49,071 nucleotides of DNA from Bacteriovorax sp. (GTDB taxonomy: Bacteria > Bdellovibrionota > Bacteriovoracia > Bacteriovoracales > Bacteriovoracaceae), in the NCBI GenBank assembly GCA_028710485.1, contig JAQTTZ010000020.1, positions 1-49,071 of the forward strand. The letters run 5' to 3'. A program made the translations under genes and the position numbers. Below are positions 6,636 through 15,848 of the stretch, piece by piece. The first letter of the stretch is position 1; the number at the start of each line of letters is the position of its first letter. The notes below the pieces were generated by a model. The model was not told the origin of the DNA, did not search any database, and was given only the letters and a program-made list of their open reading frames with translations.

Positions 6636-7553
6636 ATGAAAAGTAGAAACGGTTCCTATAAGAAAATCCTCATAGATTCTAAGACCTTAAAGGCCCACGG
6701 TCTTGTCTTGCGGGCCAATATCGACGCTCTCAAAAAACTAAGTTTATCGCCCCAAGAATTCATCACTCTTTATTTACTTTTATTCTTAAGAATTAAACAT
6801 CCAAAAAATTGGATTCAGAAAAAATCAAAAAGTCTTATTAATGAAAATGAAAATGAAAATTTTGGACCGGAACTCCTCTCTTATATTCCTGAAAGTTTTG
6901 CTTTAAATGATTGGGAAAAAGAAAAATTAAAAGGCGTGACGGCCTTTACTCTTTTTAGCCTTTATAACCTAAAGGCAATTCCTGAATCGATCAATAGAAC
7001 AATGATTCATTGGTTTTTGGGATACTGGAGCATCGAAATGCTCGAGCATATTCCAACTCCCCGTGAACTTCTGCGCCTGCAAGTCAAAAACACCAGGTGT
7101 ATTACAGTCATCACCGATCCCAATGAAATTGATTCATTCGTTTTAGAGACCCGAGACCCGCTTAGCTTTGTTCTTCATGATCTTATGCATGCCGATCAAT
7201 TTTTTAGCCAGATAGAATCTCAAAAAGGTCAGTTGGGATTTTATCAGCTGATCAATTCAATTTACGATCAACCAGATCTTCGCAATCTTTTAAAAACTGA
7301 TGCCAATTTTAAAAAAGAATTTGAGTATGTGGCCTCCGATATGAATGCCTATGTCATTCATTTATTCAAATGCCTTAAATCTTCGATATCCAGAATAGAT
7401 AAAGAAAAAGTGTTTTTTGATAATCTATTAATATGGTGGAAGATGAACGAAGAAGAAAAAATAGCTTCTCATAAACTCAGCACTCCACATTTTAACCAGC
7501 TGGATGAAATGATTTTAAAAACATTTTTCGAAAATAATCAGGAGATTCTTTAA
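6636..7553 (+). CDS. Unknown protein with an HDxMHADQ motif
   Basis: A 305-aa cytoplasmic protein of a family I do not recognise. The most conserved-looking element is SFVLHDLMHADQFF at about residues 177-190 (H181, D182, H185, D187), in predicted helix, which could bind a metal. The surrounding PRELLRLQVKNTRCITVITDP also looks structured. The N-terminal half is Lys- and Leu-rich with a low-complexity NENENEN stretch. No signal peptide or membrane segment is seen. ATG 6636 lacks a strong Shine-Dalgarno. The stop overlaps the start of the following flavodoxin-fold gene (TAATG), so the two are translationally coupled. It diverges from the QEGLA-motif gene. Confidence 0.75.
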   Translation: MKSRNGSYKKILIDSKTLKAHGLVLRANIDALKKLSLSPQEFITLYLLLFLRIKHPKNWIQKKSKSLINENENENFGPELLSYIPESFALNDWEKEKLKGVTAFTLFSLYNLKAIPESINRTMIHWFLGYWSIEMLEHIPTPRELLRLQVKNTRCITVITDPNEIDSFVLETRDPLSFVLHDLMHADQFFSQIESQKGQLGFYQLINSIYDQPDLRNLLKTDANFKKEFEYVASDMNAYVIHLFKCLKSSISRIDKEKVFFDNLLIWWKMNEEEKIASHKLSTPHFNQLDEMILKTFFENNQEIL

Positions 7554-8143
7554 TGAAGACCGTTAAAAAAAATATTTTAATCATCAATGGAAGCCTTGGT
7601 GGTGCCATTGGAAATACTTCAGTCTTAATTGAGTCGGCCCAAAAATACCTGGGCCAGCACGAGGCCAATATCGATATTTTGCATTTGGAAGAAAATCAAA
7701 ATGACCTAAAAAATAAATTAAGTTGGGCCGATGGATTTATTTTCACCTCTGGTACTTATTGGGACAGCTGGGGAAGTCCGATGCAAAGGTTCCTGGAGAC
7801 TTGTACACAATATGAGGCCAGTGATCTTTTTCTTTATAAACCAGCTAGCGTCATGATCACGATGCACTCGGTAGGTGGCAAAGGCGTTCTCTCGCGCCTT
7901 CAAGGGGTGTTAAACACCATGGGTCTCGCTATTCCTCCGATGAGTGGATTAGTCTATTCCCTGTCTTCTCATTTAGCGTTTAGCTTGAATAAGGATCAGA
8001 CTCCTAGTGATTTTAGTAACGACTTTTGGAGTCTAGAAGATATTGAGATTGTCGTTCATAACTTAATGACAGCTGTTCATCACAAACATGATTTTAAGTG
8101 CTGGCCCGTTGACCGCAAAGATCCACAACGAAGATGGCTTTAG
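7553..8143 (+). CDS. NAD(P)H-dependent FMN reductase/flavodoxin-fold oxidoreductase
   Basis: A 196-aa protein with the FMN phosphate loop near its N-terminus (ILIINGSLGGAIGNTSVLI), the WADGFIFTSGTYWDSWGSPMQRFLE segment that in this family contacts the flavin ring, and MITMHSVGGKGVLSRLQGVLNTMG, typical of the NADPH-dependent FMN reductase family (PF03358-like). It is a soluble quinone, azo or metal reductase by family; the physiological acceptor is not known. Its start overlaps the stop of the unknown HDxMHADQ gene by one base, so the two are expressed as a unit. Confidence 0.87.
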   Translation: MKTVKKNILIINGSLGGAIGNTSVLIESAQKYLGQHEANIDILHLEENQNDLKNKLSWADGFIFTSGTYWDSWGSPMQRFLETCTQYEASDLFLYKPASVMITMHSVGGKGVLSRLQGVLNTMGLAIPPMSGLVYSLSSHLAFSLNKDQTPSDFSNDFWSLEDIEIVVHNLMTAVHHKHDFKCWPVDRKDPQRRWL

Positions 8144-8206: not shown

Positions 8207-9118
8207 ATGATTTCAGAAATATTTAATCCCAAGTTATGGATGGAAGTACCAGGCTTTAAATTTCAAGACATCACTTACCACCGAGCTCTTGATCAAGGCA
8301 CCGTAAGAATTGCGATCAATCGCCCTGAGGTAAGGAATGCTTTCAGACCACAAACAGTGGATGAACTTTATTTTGCCCTAGATCACGCGCGAGTTTCTGC
8401 TGATGTTGGAGTTGTTCTCTTAACAGGTAACGGACCCTCTCCCAAAGATGCGGGCTGGGCCTTCTGCTCTGGTGGAGACCAACGCATTCGTGGAAAAGAC
8501 GGATATAAATACGAAGGAGCAGATAGCAATGGAACGGGAAATTCAAAAGTTGATCTTGGTCGCTTAGGCCGCCTACATATTCTAGAAGTTCAACGCCTTA
8601 TTCGTTTCATGCCAAAAATTGTAGTTGCCGTGGTTCCAGGTTGGGCAGTTGGTGGTGGACACTCACTACACGTTGTTTGCGATTTAACTCTGGCCTCACA
8701 AGAGCATGCCATTTTTAAACAAACAGATGCCGATGTCGCAAGTTTTGATTCAGGTTATGGATCAGCTTATCTTGCCCGCATGGTGGGACAAAAACGCGCT
8801 CGTGAAATTTTCTTCTTAGGAAGAAATTATACTGCTCAAGAAGCTTTTGATATGGGCATGGTCAACGCCGTTATTCCTCATAAAGAATTAGAAAACGTGG
8901 CACTTGATTGGGCACGTGAAATGAATTCGAAGTCTCCTACGGCCATGAGAATGCTAAAATATGGATTCAACATGATTGATGACGGTTTAGTAGGACAACA
9001 ACTTTTTGCCGGTGAGGCCACTCGGCTAGCTTATGGGACTGAAGAAGCGATGGAAGGCAGAAATGCCTTTGTTGAGAAAAGGGCCCGCGATTTTTCTAAG
9101 TATCCTTGGCATTATTAA
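8207..9118 (+). CDS. menB: 1,4-dihydroxy-2-naphthoyl-CoA synthase (menaquinone biosynthesis)
   Basis: A 303-aa crotonase-fold enzyme that cyclises o-succinylbenzoyl-CoA to 1,4-dihydroxy-2-naphthoyl-CoA. MenB-specific motifs are visible: FRPQTVDEL, the oxyanion-hole CSGGDQRIRGKDGY, VVPGWAVGGGHSLHVVCDLTLAS, and FKQTDADVASFDSGYGSAYLARMVG with the catalytic Asp/Ser/Tyr region, ending in the KYPWHY-like tail. GGAG lies 6 nt before ATG 8207. It stands alone here; other men genes are not in the window. Its presence indicates the organism makes menaquinone. Confidence 0.96.
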   Translation: MISEIFNPKLWMEVPGFKFQDITYHRALDQGTVRIAINRPEVRNAFRPQTVDELYFALDHARVSADVGVVLLTGNGPSPKDAGWAFCSGGDQRIRGKDGYKYEGADSNGTGNSKVDLGRLGRLHILEVQRLIRFMPKIVVAVVPGWAVGGGHSLHVVCDLTLASQEHAIFKQTDADVASFDSGYGSAYLARMVGQKRAREIFFLGRNYTAQEAFDMGMVNAVIPHKELENVALDWAREMNSKSPTAMRMLKYGFNMIDDGLVGQQLFAGEATRLAYGTEEAMEGRNAFVEKRARDFSKYPWHY

Positions 9119-9309
9119 GACCAAAAATAATCCGACATGTTTGGTTTACCTTTGATGGACGTTTATTTACTCAATAATTTTGAGGAGTAACCGAAATACA
9201 ATAAGCCCCATTTTTAGTAAGCCAAGGACCACGTCTGCACAATATATTCAGAATATTATTTGCACCTTATTTAAACTGGTCTTACATAGATCGCGCTTTA
9301 AAGGTACGA
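9119..9309 (+). promoter_or_regulatory. Leader of the ThiF/nitroreductase operon with a 13-bp palindrome
   Basis: This 191-bp spacer separates menB from the six-gene operon. It holds a perfect 13-bp palindrome, ATATTC-A-GAATAT, at 9244-9256, about 54 nt before the start. A possible sigma-70 site (TTGATG at 9152, 17-bp gap, TAATTT at 9175) lies upstream, but both hexamers are poor matches. No terminator for menB is evident. The palindrome is visible; its role as operator is inferred. Confidence 0.3.
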
Positions 9310-10185
9310 GTGCGTGTAATAGAAAGACCGGCATACTCCTTAAATGAAACTGAGCTTAAAGAGCTTCGTGAGAGCTTGAAGCAAATCGTAAAAAAATCTA
9401 TCCCCAAAGAAAATTTAAACTACGGAATATTCTCTGAAACAAGTGACGCCTTTAAAACAAATATTATCACTATCATTTATACTCTCGAGGACAATCGCCC
9501 GATTGCCTTTAATTCTCTCTCTTGGATTAATACACAGCTAAAAGGAAAAGATGAAGAACTGCTTCATTTGGGCTTAGTTGTTATTGATCCGGATGTTAGA
9601 GAGGGCGGGCTTTCCTGGATACTTTATGGACTCACAACCATTTTGCTATTTGTCCGCAAAAAATTAAGTCCCATCTGGGTAAGTAATGTGACTCAAGTTC
9701 CGGCCATCATTGGAAAAGTGACTCAGTCCTTTGACAGTGTCTACCCTTCCCCTGGGAATTTTGGCAAACCACCCTTCATTCATTTGTGGCTGGCCCGGCA
9801 GATAATGAAAGATAAGCGCTACGTTTTCGGCGTAGGCCCTGAGGCCGAATTTGATGCTGAAAAATTTATTATTAAAAATTCTTATACTGGTGGATCCGAT
9901 CATTTGAAGAAAAAATTTTCAGAGGCCCAACCCCACCGTGATGCTATTTATAACGATTTTTGCAAAAACAATTTAGATTATGACCGAGGTGACGACTTCA
10001 TTCAGATAGGTCAGATTAATTTGAATATGACTAAAAAATTTCTTATGAAATCAGTACCGAAGAAATCGGTGATGAGAATTGCCATCTCACTTTTTTTCGT
10101 TTCCCTACAATCAGTTCTTTCTCCAGTGCTTTTATGGCTGGACTATAATCATAAATATGGGGAATTAAGACCGTGGAAAAAATGA
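9310..10185 (+). CDS. GNAT-like protein, first gene of the ThiF operon
   Basis: A 291-aa protein starting at GTG 9310, with AAAGG about 5 nt upstream. Residues 45-120 resemble a GNAT core: a strand with RPIAFNSLSWI, then ELLHLGLVVIDPDVREGGLSWILYGL, which matches the motif A pattern of a beta strand followed by an acyl-CoA pyrophosphate loop, although the usual QxxGxG/A is degenerate. A hydrophobic helix near residues 255-280 (RIAISLFFVSLQSVLSPVLLWL) may attach it to the membrane. There is no signal peptide. The stop overlaps the ThiF-like gene in an ATGA. An acyltransferase role is inferred from fold-like motifs only; a GNAT fold without activity is possible. Confidence 0.75.
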   Translation: MRVIERPAYSLNETELKELRESLKQIVKKSIPKENLNYGIFSETSDAFKTNIITIIYTLEDNRPIAFNSLSWINTQLKGKDEELLHLGLVVIDPDVREGGLSWILYGLTTILLFVRKKLSPIWVSNVTQVPAIIGKVTQSFDSVYPSPGNFGKPPFIHLWLARQIMKDKRYVFGVGPEAEFDAEKFIIKNSYTGGSDHLKKKFSEAQPHRDAIYNDFCKNNLDYDRGDDFIQIGQINLNMTKKFLMKSVPKKSVMRIAISLFFVSLQSVLSPVLLWLDYNHKYGELRPWKK

Positions 10186-11033
10186 GTTATAAAAATTTAT
10201 TTCAGAGAAATATTGGTTTTGTAAACGAGTCTGAACAAGACAAAATTCAAAAGCAAAAGGTATATATCGTTGGAGTTGGAGGAATGGGTGGAGCTGCACT
10301 TATGAATCTTGTTCGAATGGGGTATGAAAATATTGGAGTTGCTGATATTGATTCATTCGAAGAATCAAATATCAACCGGCAGTTATTTTGCAGCACCGAT
10401 ACCCTTGGGATGGATAAGGCCGAAGCGTCAGTAATGATGGTGAAAAAACTTAATCCTGCAGTAAATATTAAGAATTGGGGACACGACTGGATTTCTAAAC
10501 TAGATGAAATCTGTAGAGAATATCCAATTATCGTTAATGGCTGTGATGATATCGTTGCCAGTAATATTCTATATAATGCTGCCAGAAAATTTAAATGTAC
10601 TGTCATTGATGCTTATACAGCTTCTGTTCCCTCGGTCTACGTCACCCGTCCAAGTGATCCTAGTCCCCTAACAAGATGGACAGGTTTAAGTGAAATTAAC
10701 AGTAGCGACAAAATATTAATTGATCAGTACAAAGTCAAAGAAACAGAATACGTCATGACGAATTCAAACTCACTGCCCCATATTCATTTAGATATCGCGA
10801 TTGAAATGATTTCAGGAAAAAGATCGAGAATGTCTCTTTCTCCAATGGTTATATCCACAGGTTGCTTAATGGCGTATCAGGTGCTCTTTTTAACAATCGA
10901 TAAAAAGGCCACTAATTATCATGGATATTTTTTAGATCCTTATGGAAAAGTTACCAAGAATAGCTTTGGGCCAATTCATTTTATTAAAAAAATATTAGTT
11001 AAATTTTTTTTAAAAAAGTGGTTAAGTGAATGA
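10182..11033 (+). CDS. ThiF/E1-like adenylyltransferase
   Basis: A 283-aa E1-like enzyme. Start placed at ATG 10182, which forms ATGA with the stop of the preceding gene; GTG 10173 is an alternative. Seen motifs: the ATP-binding glycine loop GVGGMGG (31-37), VADIDSFEESNINRQLF with the acidic and Asn/Arg/Gln ATP-site residues (D55, D57, N63, R66, Q67), K79 in GMDKAEA, and NGCDD (D123), all canonical for adenylation of a carboxylate. The CxxC zinc pairs of ThiF/MoeB are missing, and there is no cysteine between about residues 140 and 225 where the E1 thioester cysteine lies. It may therefore only form an acyl-adenylate or amide, as in MccB-type enzymes. Neighbours suggest a biosynthetic or lipid-modifying pathway rather than thiamine or molybdopterin synthesis. 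Confidence 0.9.
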   Translation: MSYKNLFQRNIGFVNESEQDKIQKQKVYIVGVGGMGGAALMNLVRMGYENIGVADIDSFEESNINRQLFCSTDTLGMDKAEASVMMVKKLNPAVNIKNWGHDWISKLDEICREYPIIVNGCDDIVASNILYNAARKFKCTVIDAYTASVPSVYVTRPSDPSPLTRWTGLSEINSSDKILIDQYKVKETEYVMTNSNSLPHIHLDIAIEMISGKRSRMSLSPMVISTGCLMAYQVLFLTIDKKATNYHGYFLDPYGKVTKNSFGPIHFIKKILVKFFLKKWLSE

Positions 11034-12214
11034 TTACTGAATTCTCACAAAAGTTTGACGGTGCTATAAACATTATTACTGCGTTGGCCATAATATTTTA
11101 TGCCGTCTATATGAATTTTTCGGAAAAAAATAATGGACTCAGAAAACGCTTACTGTTTCTGCTGACCTTATTGGGTTCACTTTGCCTGATTAGGGGGGGG
11201 AATTATGTGGCAGATTTTGGACCAATTGTTGAAAATTTTGTCTTGATCATTGCCTCCATTATTCCTTTGTCCCTTTTTTTATTAGTTGAATTAATGCTTA
11301 GAAGGCATTTGCCTCTTTCGATGAAATTATTTGCTGGAATAACCAGTCTTTTACTGGCAGTTTGTTTATTAATATTTGGTGCAAATAAATACCTGCTCTT
11401 CTTGTTAATGAGTGATTATGTTCTGATCCTATTATCCATTGTAGGTGTTCTACTTACAAATAAAAATCTAGATTTACAGAAAAATGAATTAACATTAATT
11501 AAAATCAACACAGTAATTATGATTCTCATCATACCATTGATCGTAACAGATTTTAAAAAAGTATTAGGCATAGATACTATCCGCCTGGGAGCATTTGGAA
11601 TTTTATTTTTTCTCTACGCGCTGGTGAAAGTCTGGGAGAGCATAGATGTTAAGGGCGGATTTGCCCGACTATTTTATCTACTATGTTTCAATCTCATTTC
11701 AGCTGCAATTTTTTGTTATTTGTTTGAGATCTATCAATACTACTTTCATGTTTTTATTGTCTTCATCATGCTGAGAATGCTGTCGGACATTTTAATTTAC
11801 ACCAGAGATAGTTATGACAAAAAGGCACAAGAGCTGGCCTTGTCGATAATGGATGTTTTCATCGCTGGAGAATTAAAGATAGATTCTATTAAAAAAAAGA
11901 TTTCTGGAAATGATTTTTTTATCTTAAGTAAAAAGGAACTTGCTGATTATAACTCAGAACGCATCCATTTTGTTTTCAATGAGCGTGGACTTTACTTTAA
12001 GAGTGAAACGACGGCCCTGACTAAGGACCCAGACATAAGGGATGAAATCCTGCATATTTATGAAGATTTCGATTGTAATGCCTGTATCTATGTAAAACTT
12101 TTTAATAATGATTTCTTTTTAATTCTATTCAAATGGCCGGACATGGCCCCTAAAAGTAAATTACAAAAAGAAATATTTCTAATCCAGGGTCTAGCCTCCC
12201 AAATTAAGGAATAA
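11030..12214 (+). CDS. 7-8 TM membrane protein with GAF-like cytoplasmic tail
   Basis: A 394-aa protein with about seven or eight transmembrane helices in residues 12-255, followed by a soluble tail of about 130 residues. The tail ends ACIYVKLFNNDFFLILFKWPDMAPKS..., then LIQGLASQIKE, which resembles the last strands and helix of a GAF domain, as in 7TM sensor kinases such as PrsK. No kinase, GGDEF or other output follows. Start overlaps the ThiF stop (ATGA). Codons 55-57 include a run of eight G; gain or loss of one G would bring an early stop within 20 codons, so expression of the full protein may vary. Function unknown; a membrane sensor or scaffold for the operon is inference. Confidence 0.82.
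   Translation: MITEFSQKFDGAINIITALAIIFYAVYMNFSEKNNGLRKRLLFLLTLLGSLCLIRGGNYVADFGPIVENFVLIIASIIPLSLFLLVELMLRRHLPLSMKLFAGITSLLLAVCLLIFGANKYLLFLLMSDYVLILLSIVGVLLTNKNLDLQKNELTLIKINTVIMILIIPLIVTDFKKVLGIDTIRLGAFGILFFLYALVKVWESIDVKGGFARLFYLLCFNLISAAIFCYLFEIYQYYFHVFIVFIMLRMLSDILIYTRDSYDKKAQELALSIMDVFIAGELKIDSIKKKISGNDFFILSKKELADYNSERIHFVFNERGLYFKSETTALTKDPDIRDEILHIYEDFDCNACIYVKLFNNDFFLILFKWPDMAPKSKLQKEIFLIQGLASQIKE
11193..11200 (+). repeat. G8 homopolymer inside the membrane-protein gene
   Basis: Eight consecutive G at 11193-11200 encode Arg55-Gly56-Gly57. The surrounding DNA is strongly AT-rich. One extra G gives a stop 10 codons later; one fewer gives a stop about 14 codons later. Such tracts are classic slipped-strand phase-variation sites, but variation is not shown here. 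Confidence 0.85.
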
Positions 12215-12216
12215 GT

Positions 12217-13317
12217 ATGATTACTCTTAAAGAAAAAGACATCGATTCTTTTTTTGATGTCCCTTTTAATATTTACCAGGATAACCACTTCGTTTCATTA
12301 TTCAAAGACGACGTTAAAAGATTTTTAAGCACCACTAATCCGCTGTTTAAAAATGGTGATAATTTTACTTATTTTACGGCCATTGAAAACGATATTCCCG
12401 TAGGGAGAATTATGGTGCTTGCCCATCATGATTCAAATATTCGACACAATCTCAACTGGGCCTATTTTGGTTATTTTGATTGTGCTAATAACCCCGAGGT
12501 TGCAAAGCTGTTAATCGATTCGGCAATTCAATGGGCAAAAACGAAAGGGCACACGGAGATCGTTGGAAATGTAAATTTTACTTTCATGCAGCAAATAGGC
12601 GTTATGCTCGATGGGTTTGAAAACTTCCCCTACTCTGATCAAGTTTATACTCCTCCTTACTTACCAGACCTGCTTAAAGAATTAGGATTCGAATCTTTTT
12701 TTCCGATGGTCACTTCAGAAGCCGATATTGGAAAAATTAATATGAGTAATTTTGAGAAAGACAAAATATTACAAATCGAAAATAATCCTGAATATACTTT
12801 TAAAGAAGTTGGATATTTTGGTATCAAGAAATTTATGGAAGATGGCTGCCAGGTTCTGAATGAAGGATTTGATCAAAATCCGTTTTTCACACCAATTACA
12901 GTAGAAGAATTTGAATTTCAGGCCAAAGACCTAATGTTGGTCCTCGACCCAGGATTGACAATTATTACTTATCACAACAATCGTCCGGTGGGAGTAATCA
13001 TCTGCATTCCTGATTTGAATCCACTTCTACATGCAGTCAAATCCAATATGGGATTAATTTTTCTTTTTAAGTTTATATGGTTTAAATTTTTTAATAAAAG
13101 AGCTGTAATTATATTTTATTCAGTTACTCCGGAATTTCATGGCCAAGGAATCAATCAGGCGATTTTAAAAAAAGTAATAACTAATTTAAAAAAGAAAGGT
13201 TATGAAAAACTGGGCATTACCTGGATTGCTGATGTTAATAAATCCAGTTTAAGACAGATGGAAATTTTATCTGCCAAGACTCTTCATCATTTATGTTTAT
13301 TTAAAAAGAAAATCTAG
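12217..13317 (+). CDS. GNAT-type N-acyltransferase, YghO-like
   Basis: A 366-aa protein beginning 2 nt after the membrane-protein stop. The first half shows FTYFTAIENDIPVGRIMVLAHHD, LNWAYFGYFDC and AIQWAKTKGHTEIVGNVNFTFMQQIGVMLDGFENFPY...PPYLPDLLKELGF, the pattern of the YghO-like GNAT family. The C-terminal half has another GNAT-like core with VTPEFHGQGINQAILKKVI, in which the HGQGI loop would bind the acyl-CoA pyrophosphate. This family is related, as I recall, to GNAT-type enzymes of bacterial ceramide synthesis. N-acylation of an amine is the likely chemistry; the substrate is unknown. Confidence 0.85.
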   Translation: MITLKEKDIDSFFDVPFNIYQDNHFVSLFKDDVKRFLSTTNPLFKNGDNFTYFTAIENDIPVGRIMVLAHHDSNIRHNLNWAYFGYFDCANNPEVAKLLIDSAIQWAKTKGHTEIVGNVNFTFMQQIGVMLDGFENFPYSDQVYTPPYLPDLLKELGFESFFPMVTSEADIGKINMSNFEKDKILQIENNPEYTFKEVGYFGIKKFMEDGCQVLNEGFDQNPFFTPITVEEFEFQAKDLMLVLDPGLTIITYHNNRPVGVIICIPDLNPLLHAVKSNMGLIFLFKFIWFKFFNKRAVIIFYSVTPEFHGQGINQAILKKVITNLKKKGYEKLGITWIADVNKSSLRQMEILSAKTLHHLCLFKKKI

Positions 13318-13324
13318 GATAATT

Positions 13325-14335
13325 ATGAATTGGAACAAAGAAATATTTAACCAAATGGCCGCTGTCGCATCTCGCTCCCCCTCTGTTCATAATGTACAGC
13401 CTTGGAAAGTTCAATTTACAGAAGATGGATTTAATCTTTATCAAGCAAAGAGCAGAAGATTATTTGTAGGTGATCCCAAGCTTCACGATAATGACGTCAG
13501 CCTGGGGTGTTTTTTCGAATTGTGCCGAATGTTCCTTCACGCTCATGGGCTTGGATCTACAATCGTAAAAGACGATACACAAAAATCCCAGGATTTTGAA
13601 GATTCATACGAGATGAGATTTAAAATTACTTTATCACCAATCTCTCCTGTTCAAGATCGTCTCTACGATAATATTTCCAAAAGAAGATCCTTTAGAGGAA
13701 TTTTTCAATACGATAAACATTTCGATGAAAATAAACTCAAAGAAATCAAAGTTGACGGACTCGAGTTGAAGTGGATTTGTGAACGGGATGAATTGAATAA
13801 ATGGGCGGGACTTTATGATGAGAGCTCTTCCCAAATCAATCAGGGATCAGGCTATTTTAAAGAGCTCATTCACTGGATTCGCTTTTCCCAATCAGACCCT
13901 AAATTTCTTCAAGATGGGCTTAACTATAAGGCCCTGGCGCTGGGAAAAATGGAGGCCATAATGGCCGGCCTCTTATTCAAAGAATCTATTTTTAAGCTAT
14001 TGTCCAAGCTGTCCTTAGAGAAAATCCTTATTACCGAGGCTCCCCAAATCCGCTCGAGCCAAGGAATATTAATAGTATATGCTAATAATAAGCTCGGGCC
14101 CTTTGAGATGGGAGTGGCCTTTATGAGGCTATGGCTAGAACTCACCTCTAAAGAGTTATATGCCTGTCCATTGTCGGCCCTTGTAGATTTTACACACACA
14201 GGAAACATTCTCAACTCCATGAAACCATCGAATGATATGATCTGCTTAAATGTATTACGTTTTGGAAAGGTAGCAGATGAAAAAAATATCTATTCTTCAC
14301 CTCGGCTTGGCATTGACCGGATTATTATTCCATAA
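13325..14335 (+). CDS. Acg/Rv3131-type nitroreductase-family protein
   Basis: A 336-aa flavin-fold protein. The family signature is at the N-terminus: ASRSPSVHNVQPWKV (residues 15-29), then LFVGDPKLHDNDVSLGCFFELCRMFLHAHGLG and DNISKRRSFRGIF. These match the Acg/Rv3131 branch of the nitroreductase superfamily, which has internally duplicated half-domains. A ThiF domain fused to this kind of nitroreductase is known, as I recall, in mycobacterial Rv1355c; here they are separate genes in one operon. It lies 7 nt after the acyltransferase gene and overlaps the di-heme gene by 59 nt. Probably FMN-dependent redox chemistry or flavin storage; substrate unknown. Confidence 0.88.
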   Translation: MNWNKEIFNQMAAVASRSPSVHNVQPWKVQFTEDGFNLYQAKSRRLFVGDPKLHDNDVSLGCFFELCRMFLHAHGLGSTIVKDDTQKSQDFEDSYEMRFKITLSPISPVQDRLYDNISKRRSFRGIFQYDKHFDENKLKEIKVDGLELKWICERDELNKWAGLYDESSSQINQGSGYFKELIHWIRFSQSDPKFLQDGLNYKALALGKMEAIMAGLLFKESIFKLLSKLSLEKILITEAPQIRSSQGILIVYANNKLGPFEMGVAFMRLWLELTSKELYACPLSALVDFTHTGNILNSMKPSNDMICLNVLRFGKVADEKNIYSSPRLGIDRIIIP

Positions 14336-15848
14336 TCTAAGCTTTGCGACTTTAAGCCTGAATGCCCCCAAAGAATTAAAATATTTTATTGAAAATGATT
14401 TTGATTCTATTCATATGCAGGCACTAAAAACCCATGCAGTTCCTGTTAAAATTCTTTTGCCCTCATTAATTCTAGAAGGTCGCTCTAAAGGATGGATCGC
14501 AGAAGATTCATTTGATTATAAAGAAGTATTTAAAAGATCAGGACTTACTTATCCTCAAAATATAATTTTCAATGCTAAAAGCTACTCTTGGAAATCAGAG
14601 CTACTCCCTCTAGGATTAGTTCAAAAGGAAATGGGTTTTGGTATTAAGGCCAATGTTAAAATTGCCAACCTTTCTTGTGTTGCTTGCCATAGCGGTTCAC
14701 AGTACGATCAAAACGGTAAAAAAACCAACAACCAGATTATCGGAGCTCCAAGCGATACCTTCAATCCTGAAATGTATGTCACTACTCTTTATGAGGGAAT
14801 GAAAAAAGTTAATCAAAACTGGGCACGGGCAACAGCTATTATGAACCAGTTATTTCCCGATACCAATTTGAAAGAGAAACTGCTCTATAAAACTATTATA
14901 CGCCTGCAAGTTAGATCTTATATGAAGGCCCATGCATCGATTGATAGAGCAACACCATTTTTAAATGGTGGCCCTGGTCTTACCAATGGAGTTGCGTCCC
15001 TAAAAAATGTTTTAGGTCTTGATGTATTTGAAGGCTCAGCATCTGGCTTTACTTCTATCCCATCAATTGGAGATAGAGGTTTTAGAAGCTCACTTCTTTA
15101 CGACGGAGTTTACTCGATTGCTCATAAGGATTCACAAAGAGAAGTTCAAACTGTAACCAACCAAAGCATCGATGATATTTCAACTGTCGTCGCCTTATTT
15201 ACTGTTCCGACAATGGGGCAAACTACGGCCCGTGCATATAAAAATATTAGCACTGTTAAAGAAATCGTGGGCCCTATTCTAAAAATTTATAAAACACCGG
15301 ATTTTCCTGGAACTATCATAAAAGAAAGGGCCGAGCGAGGATTTGCTATCTATAATTCCAGCTGTCTTCAATGTCATGGTGAATACAAATGGGATGGCGG
15401 AAAAAAATCTCAACTTATCTCTTTTCCTAATAAATTAGTTCCGCAGAATGAAATGAACTCAGATGCAAATCGATGGTTAGCGGTGACTCTTTCTTTAAGT
15501 AAAAATCTCGAAAACTCGGTATGGAATGATACCCTTCAGGTCAATCATAACAAAGGGTATATTGCTCCTCTGCTGGAAGGCTTATGGGCAACAGCACCTT
15601 ATATGCATAACGGCTCTGTTCCGACGTTATGGCAGTTTATGAGACCAGATATGCGTCCTGCTAAGTTTGTTGTTGGAAATCAAAATCTGGAAATGAACAA
15701 AGTTGGAATAGCAGCTCTAGCAAGTTTTGGCAGCGAAATTTATGACACAAGTTTAGCCGGTCGAAACAATCATGGGCACGAAAAAGAGTTTGAAGAACTT
15801 TCAGATGCTGATAAAGATGACCTGCTTGAGTACTTGAAAACTTTGTAA
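14277..15848 (+). CDS. Exported di-heme c-type cytochrome, RoxA/peroxidase-like
   Basis: A 523-aa periplasmic protein with a signal peptide (MKKISILHLGLALTG...SFA, about 24 residues). Two c-heme motifs are visible, CVACH at 134-138 and CLQCH at 363-367. Near the C-terminus, PLLEGLWATAPYMHNGSVPTLWQFM is the signature shared by di-heme cytochrome c peroxidases and RoxA-type rubber oxygenases. It is shorter than RoxA (about 650 aa) and longer than CcpA peroxidases. ATG 14277 has GGAAAGG upstream and lies 59 nt inside the nitroreductase gene, so translation is coupled. It probably oxidises a periplasmic or membrane-derived product of the operon; oxygenase versus peroxidase cannot be settled from sequence. 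Confidence 0.88.
   Translation: MKKISILHLGLALTGLLFHNLSFATLSLNAPKELKYFIENDFDSIHMQALKTHAVPVKILLPSLILEGRSKGWIAEDSFDYKEVFKRSGLTYPQNIIFNAKSYSWKSELLPLGLVQKEMGFGIKANVKIANLSCVACHSGSQYDQNGKKTNNQIIGAPSDTFNPEMYVTTLYEGMKKVNQNWARATAIMNQLFPDTNLKEKLLYKTIIRLQVRSYMKAHASIDRATPFLNGGPGLTNGVASLKNVLGLDVFEGSASGFTSIPSIGDRGFRSSLLYDGVYSIAHKDSQREVQTVTNQSIDDISTVVALFTVPTMGQTTARAYKNISTVKEIVGPILKIYKTPDFPGTIIKERAERGFAIYNSSCLQCHGEYKWDGGKKSQLISFPNKLVPQNEMNSDANRWLAVTLSLSKNLENSVWNDTLQVNHNKGYIAPLLEGLWATAPYMHNGSVPTLWQFMRPDMRPAKFVVGNQNLEMNKVGIAALASFGSEIYDTSLAGRNNHGHEKEFEELSDADKDDLLEYLKTL

Follow-up and report, generated by a model that had tools for sequence, protein, structure and literature searches.

A widely conserved six-gene cluster in Bacteriovorax, related to pathways that join a ThiF-like enzyme, a flavin oxidase and an acyltransferase

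What might a bacterium make with two acyltransferase-like proteins, a ThiF-like adenylating enzyme, a flavin oxidase, a membrane protein and a di-haem cytochrome, all encoded in one run of genes? The question is raised by a 49,071-nucleotide stretch of DNA from Bacteriovorax sp. (contig JAQTTZ010000020.1 of assembly GCA_028710485.1; the whole stretch is hereafter called the window), in which six open reading frames (ORFs) follow one another on the plus strand at positions 9310-15848. Their junction gaps of -13, -4, +2, +7 and -59 nt agree with a preliminary description of the locus, which had noted a six-gene operon with junctions that overlap or measure at most 7 nt. The six genes are as follows.

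Gene 1, 9310..10185, plus strand: protein of GNAT fold whose hydrophobic helix at the C terminus is a possible membrane anchor; the true start is perhaps upstream, at about 9235.
Gene 2, 10173..11033, plus strand: ThiF/MoeB-superfamily adenylating enzyme with no invariant Cys; predicted small-molecule carboxylate activation, probably cyclisation.
Gene 3, 11030..12214, plus strand: polytopic membrane protein, its roughly 7-8 segments followed by a hydrophilic tail at the C terminus; no family assigned.
Gene 4, 12217..13317, plus strand: member of the YghO / bacterial ceramide-synthase-like N-acyltransferase superfamily; a GNAT protein, probably with two domains.
Gene 5, 13325..14335, plus strand: Acg-family flavin-dependent oxidase of nitroreductase fold; predicted desaturase.
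Gene 6, 14277..15848, plus strand: RoxA-like di-haem c-type cytochrome of the peroxidase or dioxygenase family; probably exported.

The cluster is real, widely conserved and, as far as the open-access papers searched show, undescribed (we found no account of the six-gene set there), and it is a relative of the ThiF, flavin-oxidase and acyltransferase kind of pathway. The evidence comes from 22 compared loci, the window counted, which were selected for holding a gene 1 of the window's type together with other genes of the cluster; the proportions given here are therefore not frequencies among all carriers of gene 1. All six genes were found in 16 of the 22, including three loci (L056, L110 and L111) in which gene 3 is known by position and its sequence match is weak. 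Five loci have genes 1-5 without gene 6 beside the cluster (L050, L095, L097, L105 and L108), and one, L109, holds every cluster gene except gene 3. Carriers include Bacteriovoracaceae, Bdellovibrionales, Brevundimonas, Rhizobiaceae and a Legionellales metagenome-assembled genome (MAG); we take Brevundimonas to belong to the Alphaproteobacteria and the phylum of the window to be Bdellovibrionota. Another genome of the window's genus (G008) carries the complete set, with the order unchanged and identities of 58-85%. A scan of genome contigs with a gene-1 profile returned 10 loci, two with ThiF and gene 1 only and eight with the cluster (UBA6153, Ensifer adhaerens, four Brevundimonas, the Legionellales MAG and a Bdellovibrionales MAG), to which further loci were added through phylum searches and plasmids.

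The arrangement of the genes varies more than their company. The order 1-2-3-4-5 is kept in 16 of the 22 loci, with gene 6 on the opposite strand in seven of these, and the order 3-1-2-4-5-6 occurs in L056, L110 and L111. Two loci of one genus, L106 and L107, are split over both strands into a block of genes 4, 5 and 2, gene 6 alone, and a pair of genes 1 and 3; L109 is similar, and in all three the block of genes 4, 5 and 2 is intact with gene 1 elsewhere. Because membership hardly changes while order and strand do, the comparison is strong evidence of joint function, and we regard it as nearly certain that the six genes form one unit. The preliminary description had proposed such a unit and looked to co-occurrence of the homologues elsewhere, which is what the comparison shows. 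The full set of six is the common state and not the only one, given the loci without gene 6 or gene 3 and four genomes, described below, that hold genes 1 and 3 alone.

Plasmids give a consistent picture. Among the 72,556 records of PLSDB, gene 1 and a cluster-type ThiF (at a coverage of at least 80%) pick out one identical set of 10, which also supplies the ten best matches for genes 4 and 5; all come from Ensifer, Shinella or Rhizobium, several are near-duplicates, and three of the ten were inspected individually. The sole record with a match of at least 80% to the Brevundimonas gene 6 is one of the cluster records. The idea that gene 6 is a chance neighbour was rejected, as it stands beside the cluster in 17 of the 22 loci and in seven of them lies on the opposite strand from genes 1-5. 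An acyl-[ACP]-phospholipid O-acyltransferase gene (ACP, acyl carrier protein) adjoins the Shinella cluster, and a similar-looking ORF adjoins that of Ensifer.

Although the preliminary description held that the full set matches no known pathway, this is out of date for its core. The acyl-oxazolone pathway consists of a ThiF-type cyclase together with an N-acyltransferase and a flavin oxidase of the nitroreductase superfamily, as described for TyzA/B/C in the sections of PMC10404671 drawn on here, and TrzA/TrzS carry out ATP-dependent cyclisation followed by O2-dependent desaturation according to the corresponding sections of PMC12856293. The same portions of the two papers place TyzACB/TrzAS in mycobacteria and Rhodococcus and OxzAB in Pseudoalteromonas rubra. 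Oxazolones do not survive acid or alcohol, according to PMC12856293. No genome that we searched passed the NF005901 or NF011424 cut-offs, which were used to seek OxzB/TrzS, and our oxazolone-type reference consists of homologous trios and a fusion in Pseudomonadota. Acyltransferase-ThiF-nitroreductase trios were observed in L121, L122, L125 and L130; in L125 and L130 the acyltransferase exceeds the cut-off of TIGR03694 (exosort_acyl), a family whose name ties it to PEP-CTERM/exosortase systems. In enzyme classes the block of the window resembles an acyl-oxazolone pathway; in several defining features it departs, or may depart, from one.

Gene 2 matches Pfam ThiF at 5.8e-33, and its family profile aligns with the PDB structure of MoeB at 4.6e-22, placing Asp125 on MoeB residue 130. 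Residues R12, the glycines of G34-G40, D58, R69, K82 and D125 are invariant in a nine-row alignment in which no Cys column is invariant (the commonest is occupied in seven of nine rows), and the protein has the glycine-rich motif and adenylation-motif Asp expected of the ThiF of acyl-oxazolone pathways. We reconstructed a ThiF tree of 39 rows, 18 of them cluster ThiFs (L052, L053, L097 and L154 were left out; L136 and L156 are one genome, included in this tree and not in the oxidase tree below). The 18 cluster rows form one group with 99/99 support, joined at 99/97 to ThiFs that are paired with gene 1 outside the cluster, and the oxazolone-type rows form another group at 100/99. Cluster and oxazolone-type (exosort_acyl-trio) ThiFs are set apart from MoeB, ThiF and TcdA at 94/76, which is not decisive, TcdA being a long branch. 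A locus from the window's own genus (L038 8505-11489, genome G009) has in a row a ThiF, a methyltransferase-like gene and, by inspection of the sequence, a FeeM-like acyltransferase with a PilZ-like tail; its ThiF falls among the oxazolone-type rows of the tree.

Gene 5 is a nitroreductase-superfamily flavin oxidase encoded among coupled genes, as in acyl-oxazolone pathways. It matches NF047509 at 4.4e-37, below the cut-off, and its family profile finds the PDB structure of Acg (2ymv) at 1.1e-17. The pairing of ThiF with an Acg-type oxidase, which had been called a recurring module, is borne out by the NCBIfam 'Rv1355c family', which spans both, and by the part of PMC12856293 drawn on here. 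A tree of 26 oxidases, 17 of them from clusters and with the same four loci left out, separates the cluster type (17) from the oxazolone type (6) at 98/95 and 97/91, with several long branches flagged; the N-terminal motif reads HN in all 17 cluster oxidases and in Acg 2ymv, and DN in all six of the oxazolone type. A plasmid of Pseudoalteromonas xiamenensis also carries an Acg-like oxidase gene (L114 4627-5975), with RedY, polyketide synthase and AMP-binding genes next to it.

On sequence comparison, gene 4 is a homologue of the YghO/ceramide-type N-acyltransferases, as the preliminary description had suspected. It has an Acetyltransf_1 match (1.5e-10 in the window, present in all nine alignment members), aligns with E. 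coli YghO over its full length at 20% identity (BLASTP 1e-22, a single comparison), and by hhalign matches YghO and three relatives at 100%, 2e-48, over 360 columns. One of these relatives sits in a ceramide-type gene cluster of Pseudomonas; unlike there, no serine palmitoyltransferase, ACP or CerR gene was noticed inside the cluster in the six loci read (L050, L054-L056, L095 and L096). In E. coli K-12, yghO (L102 9044-10216) is annotated as a putative DNA-binding transcriptional regulator, and its product is 63% identical to a protein annotated as an N-acetyltransferase in a ceramide-type cluster.

Structure comparison gives gene 1 a GNAT fold. That it is a plain FeeM homologue was rejected for want of sequence support. 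FeeM is absent among the best 50 structural matches listed, an absence uninformative in itself, and a profile comparison that gave no match led us to reject genes 1 and 4 as one family. The frame of gene 1 is open and conserved upstream of the GTG at 9310 (window 9205-9310); AAGGA precedes a possible CTG start at 9235, in place of which a relative has TTG.

The product of gene 3 has eight hydrophobic segments in the window copy, and its relatives are 10-61% identical. Pfam gave no match in the window copy and weak, scattered matches among seven relatives; across these eight sequences it recognised no GAF, sensor or output domain, and the GAF tail that had been ascribed to gene 3 was accordingly not found. 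The gene 3 copies of L050, L054, L055 and L056 were initially recognised from their place in the locus and served as queries afterwards. A profile of nine copies strongly recovers those of L104 and L106-L108 and weakly those of L056, L110 and L111, for which the values (6.5e-9 to 2.4e-16) come from a seven-sequence search with large composition bias and a profile built without those three.

Gene 6 matches the RoxA-like_Cyt-c domain at 2.5e-19, and its family profile finds the PDB structure of RoxA (4b2n) at 1.4e-23. It has CxxCH motifs at 134 and 363 and, by eye, a signal-like N terminus. It scores 146.2 bits on NF040606, whose cut-off is 150, and falls below the RoxA, RoxB and RoxC cut-offs (53.5, 59.5 and 72.3 bits vs 1000, 900 and 900).

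Outside the 22 loci, gene 1 is modular: it occurs alone (L113, L158), with ThiF only (L033-L037, L103, L112) and with gene 3 only (L152, L153, L155, L157). Paired with a sister ThiF, a distant version of gene 1 is found in Bacteriovoracaceae, at 19-29% identity. Across the window's phylum a gene-1-like match was found in 41 of 368 genomes (42 matches listed), and the 30 such loci examined comprise 11 clusters, nine pairs of ThiF and gene 1, and 10 with neither. Eight of 398 genomes drawn from Pseudomonadota carry gene 1: three with all six genes (the Brevundimonas centre, L154 and L156), four with genes 1 and 3 only, in which the stretches fetched gave no match to genes 2, 4, 5 or 6, and one with a lone fragment (L158). 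In five of the seven pair loci looked at in the window's phylum, the five belonging to its family, a gene that looks like a sensor kinase on inspection of the sequence directly precedes the sister ThiF and distant gene 1.

Kinase-like gene, ThiF and gene 1: L033 8207-11409; L034 3595-7012; L036 8366-11633; L037 8318-11552; L112 8262-11422.

Of the other two, L103 has no kinase match and L035 ends before its flank could show one. These five are possibly loci for an acylated signal and its receptor.

The gene families, the fold of gene 1 and the co-conservation are computed results; from them we infer the reactions, their order, the substrate and the product. Gene 4 would N-acylate an amino acid or a similar acid, with acyl-CoA or acyl-ACP as donor of the fatty acyl group, a role assigned to it as the N-acyltransferase feeding genes 2 and 5 because the rearranged loci hold genes 4, 5 and 2 together; this trio of acyltransferase, flavin oxidase and ThiF in L106, L107 and L109 matches the chemistry of TyzA/TyzC/TyzB and TrzA/TrzS. 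Gene 2 would then adenylate the carboxylate with ATP, after which the amide oxygen may close an oxazolone-type ring or the activated acyl group may be passed on, and gene 5, as a flavin mononucleotide (FMN) oxidase, would take off two hydrogens with O2. Genes 1 and 3 could form a membrane module acting before or after genes 4, 2 and 5, in which gene 1, with its membrane-anchor-like helix, and gene 3 would add a second acyl group or hand the product to the membrane. Gene 6, a probably exported periplasmic RoxA-like di-haem enzyme, would act last or oxidise the exported product. In an alternative assignment, favoured by the pairs of ThiF and gene 1, the N-acyltransferase is gene 1.

That the product is N-acylated, carboxylate-activated and oxidised we judge somewhat probable, and the acylated, oxidised small molecule or lipid proposed in the preliminary description fits this prediction; that it is an oxazolone is a tentative suggestion, held at less than even confidence. 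For the main reading, in which a conserved biosynthetic cluster resembles the acyl-oxazolone pathways in how it works and forms a separate lineage with extra steps, the case is evenly balanced. Several results weigh against it. On the side of the enzymes, gene 2 scores 90.6 bits on PRK08223 vs 411 for a fusion ThiF, and gene 5 lies outside the oxazolone-type (FDO-A-like) oxidase group, whose six reference rows are trios or fusions rather than characterised proteins and whose tree has long branches. For gene 5 the Acg/Rv3131 model returns 128 bits and the Rv1355c model 60, compared with 141 and 127 for a trio oxidase taken as a control and 92 and 146 for a fusion, in partial agreement with the tree, and FDO-B enzymes are not thought to form oxazolones according to the part of PMC10404671 drawn on here. 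A profile comparison detected no similarity of genes 1 and 4 to the exosort_acyl-type set. On the side of gene distribution, 10 of the 30 gene-1-like loci of the phylum have no ThiF and no gene 4, 5 or 6 within flanks of up to 1.5 kb (gene 3 was not looked for there). Gene 1 pairs with gene 3 without a close cluster ThiF in L152, L153, L155 and L157, whose genomes have elsewhere generic ThiF matches only (best 1.2e-19, over part of the model), and it pairs with ThiF without genes 4-5, which would suit gene 1 as the N-acyltransferase instead.

Other explanations account for parts of the same evidence. It is unlikely, in our estimate, that the locus serves cell-cell signalling, with gene 1 and ThiF making an acylated, ring-closed amino-acid signal (like an N-acyl homoserine lactone), gene 3 as sensor or exporter and genes 4-6 tailoring or destroying the signal; the kinase-like genes before five of the seven pairs in the same phylum, the travelling of gene 3 with gene 1 and the structural likeness of oxazolones to signals pointed out in the part of PMC12856293 drawn on here speak for it, but gene 3 shows no sensor or output domain, the window's six-gene block holds no regulator gene, and the pair loci L103 and L035 add no kinase. 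Quite unlikely is a membrane-lipid pathway, in which two acyltransferases would assemble an aminolipid with two tails, resembling a ceramide, and ThiF, the flavin oxidase and the haem enzyme would modify its head group: the family of gene 4, the presence of two GNAT-fold proteins and the O-acyltransferase gene and similar-looking ORF beside the Shinella and Ensifer clusters are in keeping with it, while no serine palmitoyltransferase-, ACP- or CerR-type gene was noticed inside the cluster in the six loci read and the carboxylate-activating enzyme is left unexplained.

Should the cluster be exactly a TyzACB/OxzAB acyl-oxazolone pathway with a diverged acyltransferase, the same three enzyme classes and their tight coupling would be accounted for, and genes 3 and 6 would be incidental. 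We consider this improbable, since 17 of the 22 loci have gene 6 and 21 have gene 3 (three of the latter by weak matches), which makes them hardly incidental, and gene 5 falls outside the oxazolone-type oxidase clade. The ThiF fold is common to E1 enzymes, which speaks for an E1-like system modifying a protein or peptide; the absence of an invariant Cys from the cluster ThiF clade and the acyltransferase partners make this highly improbable (the ORF list comprised frames of at least 90 amino acids, small carrier or precursor peptides thus falling outside it).

Beyond the acyl-oxazolone-like reading, we advance as a speculative possibility, held with less than even confidence, that the cluster represents a new class of lipid or signal pathway in predatory and environmental Gram-negative bacteria, in which ThiF would activate an N-acylated carboxylate not, or not only, for oxazolone closure, a membrane-anchored GNAT and the membrane protein would build a two-acyl product, and the periplasmic RoxA-like di-haem enzyme would cleave or oxidise it. 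If true, flavin and haem oxidations would take place on either side of the inner membrane within one small-molecule route. Whatever its product, the cluster unites ceramide-synthase-like GNATs with RoxA-like cytochromes in a single predicted pathway. It offers a genetically simple relative of the N-acyl oxazolone pathways in culturable genera (Brevundimonas, Rhizobium, Ensifer and Shinella), and its partners, namely the membrane protein, the probably periplasmic haem enzyme and the sensor-kinase-like gene of the sister loci, hint at the purpose of such molecules, whose physiological role is called a major unresolved question in the part of PMC12856293 drawn on here.

In the window, an FMN-reductase-like gene (7553-8143) and menB (8207-9118; PRK08321, 576 bits vs a cut-off of 378) precede the operon, the latter ending 191 nt upstream of the start listed for gene 1. 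The GC content of the operon is 0.363 vs 0.371 in the remaining window, and a recent foreign origin was rejected in that base composition shows no sign of it. Promoter and terminator scans of the window gave no usable result.

Set beside known systems, gene 4 is homologous over its full length to YghO and to the ceramide-cluster relative, with about 20% identity to YghO and no sphingoid-base genes noticed in its block, its likeness to CerS (CC_1154) running through relatives. Gene 6 comes closest to the RoxA rubber oxygenase and the di-haem cytochrome c peroxidases: its family aligns with RoxA in five stretches, best in the RoxA-like domain, and has two CxxCH motifs; it is far under the RoxA/B/C cut-offs and just under that of NF040606. 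In contrast to the Rv1355c-type fusion, the window has its ThiF and oxidase on separate genes, with 31 and 60 bits on NF005901 vs 476. PMC12479983 gives candidate loci for N-acyl tyrosines such as the stieleriacines; in these, the loci of stieleriacines, thalassotalic acid and kyonggic acid, an N-acyl amino acid synthase gene lies beside ThiF and nitroreductase genes; they have methyltransferases instead, and the portion of that paper drawn on here mentions no relative of gene 3, 4 or 6. With TyzACB, TrzAS and OxzAB, as described in the sections of PMC10404671 and PMC12856293 drawn on here, the window shares coupled genes for an acyltransferase, a flavin oxidase of the nitroreductase superfamily and a ThiF-like enzyme corresponding to the ATP-dependent cyclase. 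It differs from them in its own ThiF and oxidase clades (relative to related trios, not to characterised proteins), in acyltransferases without profile similarity to the exosort_acyl enzymes of those trios, and in having one more GNAT as well as the membrane protein of gene 3 and the RoxA-like di-haem protein of gene 6.

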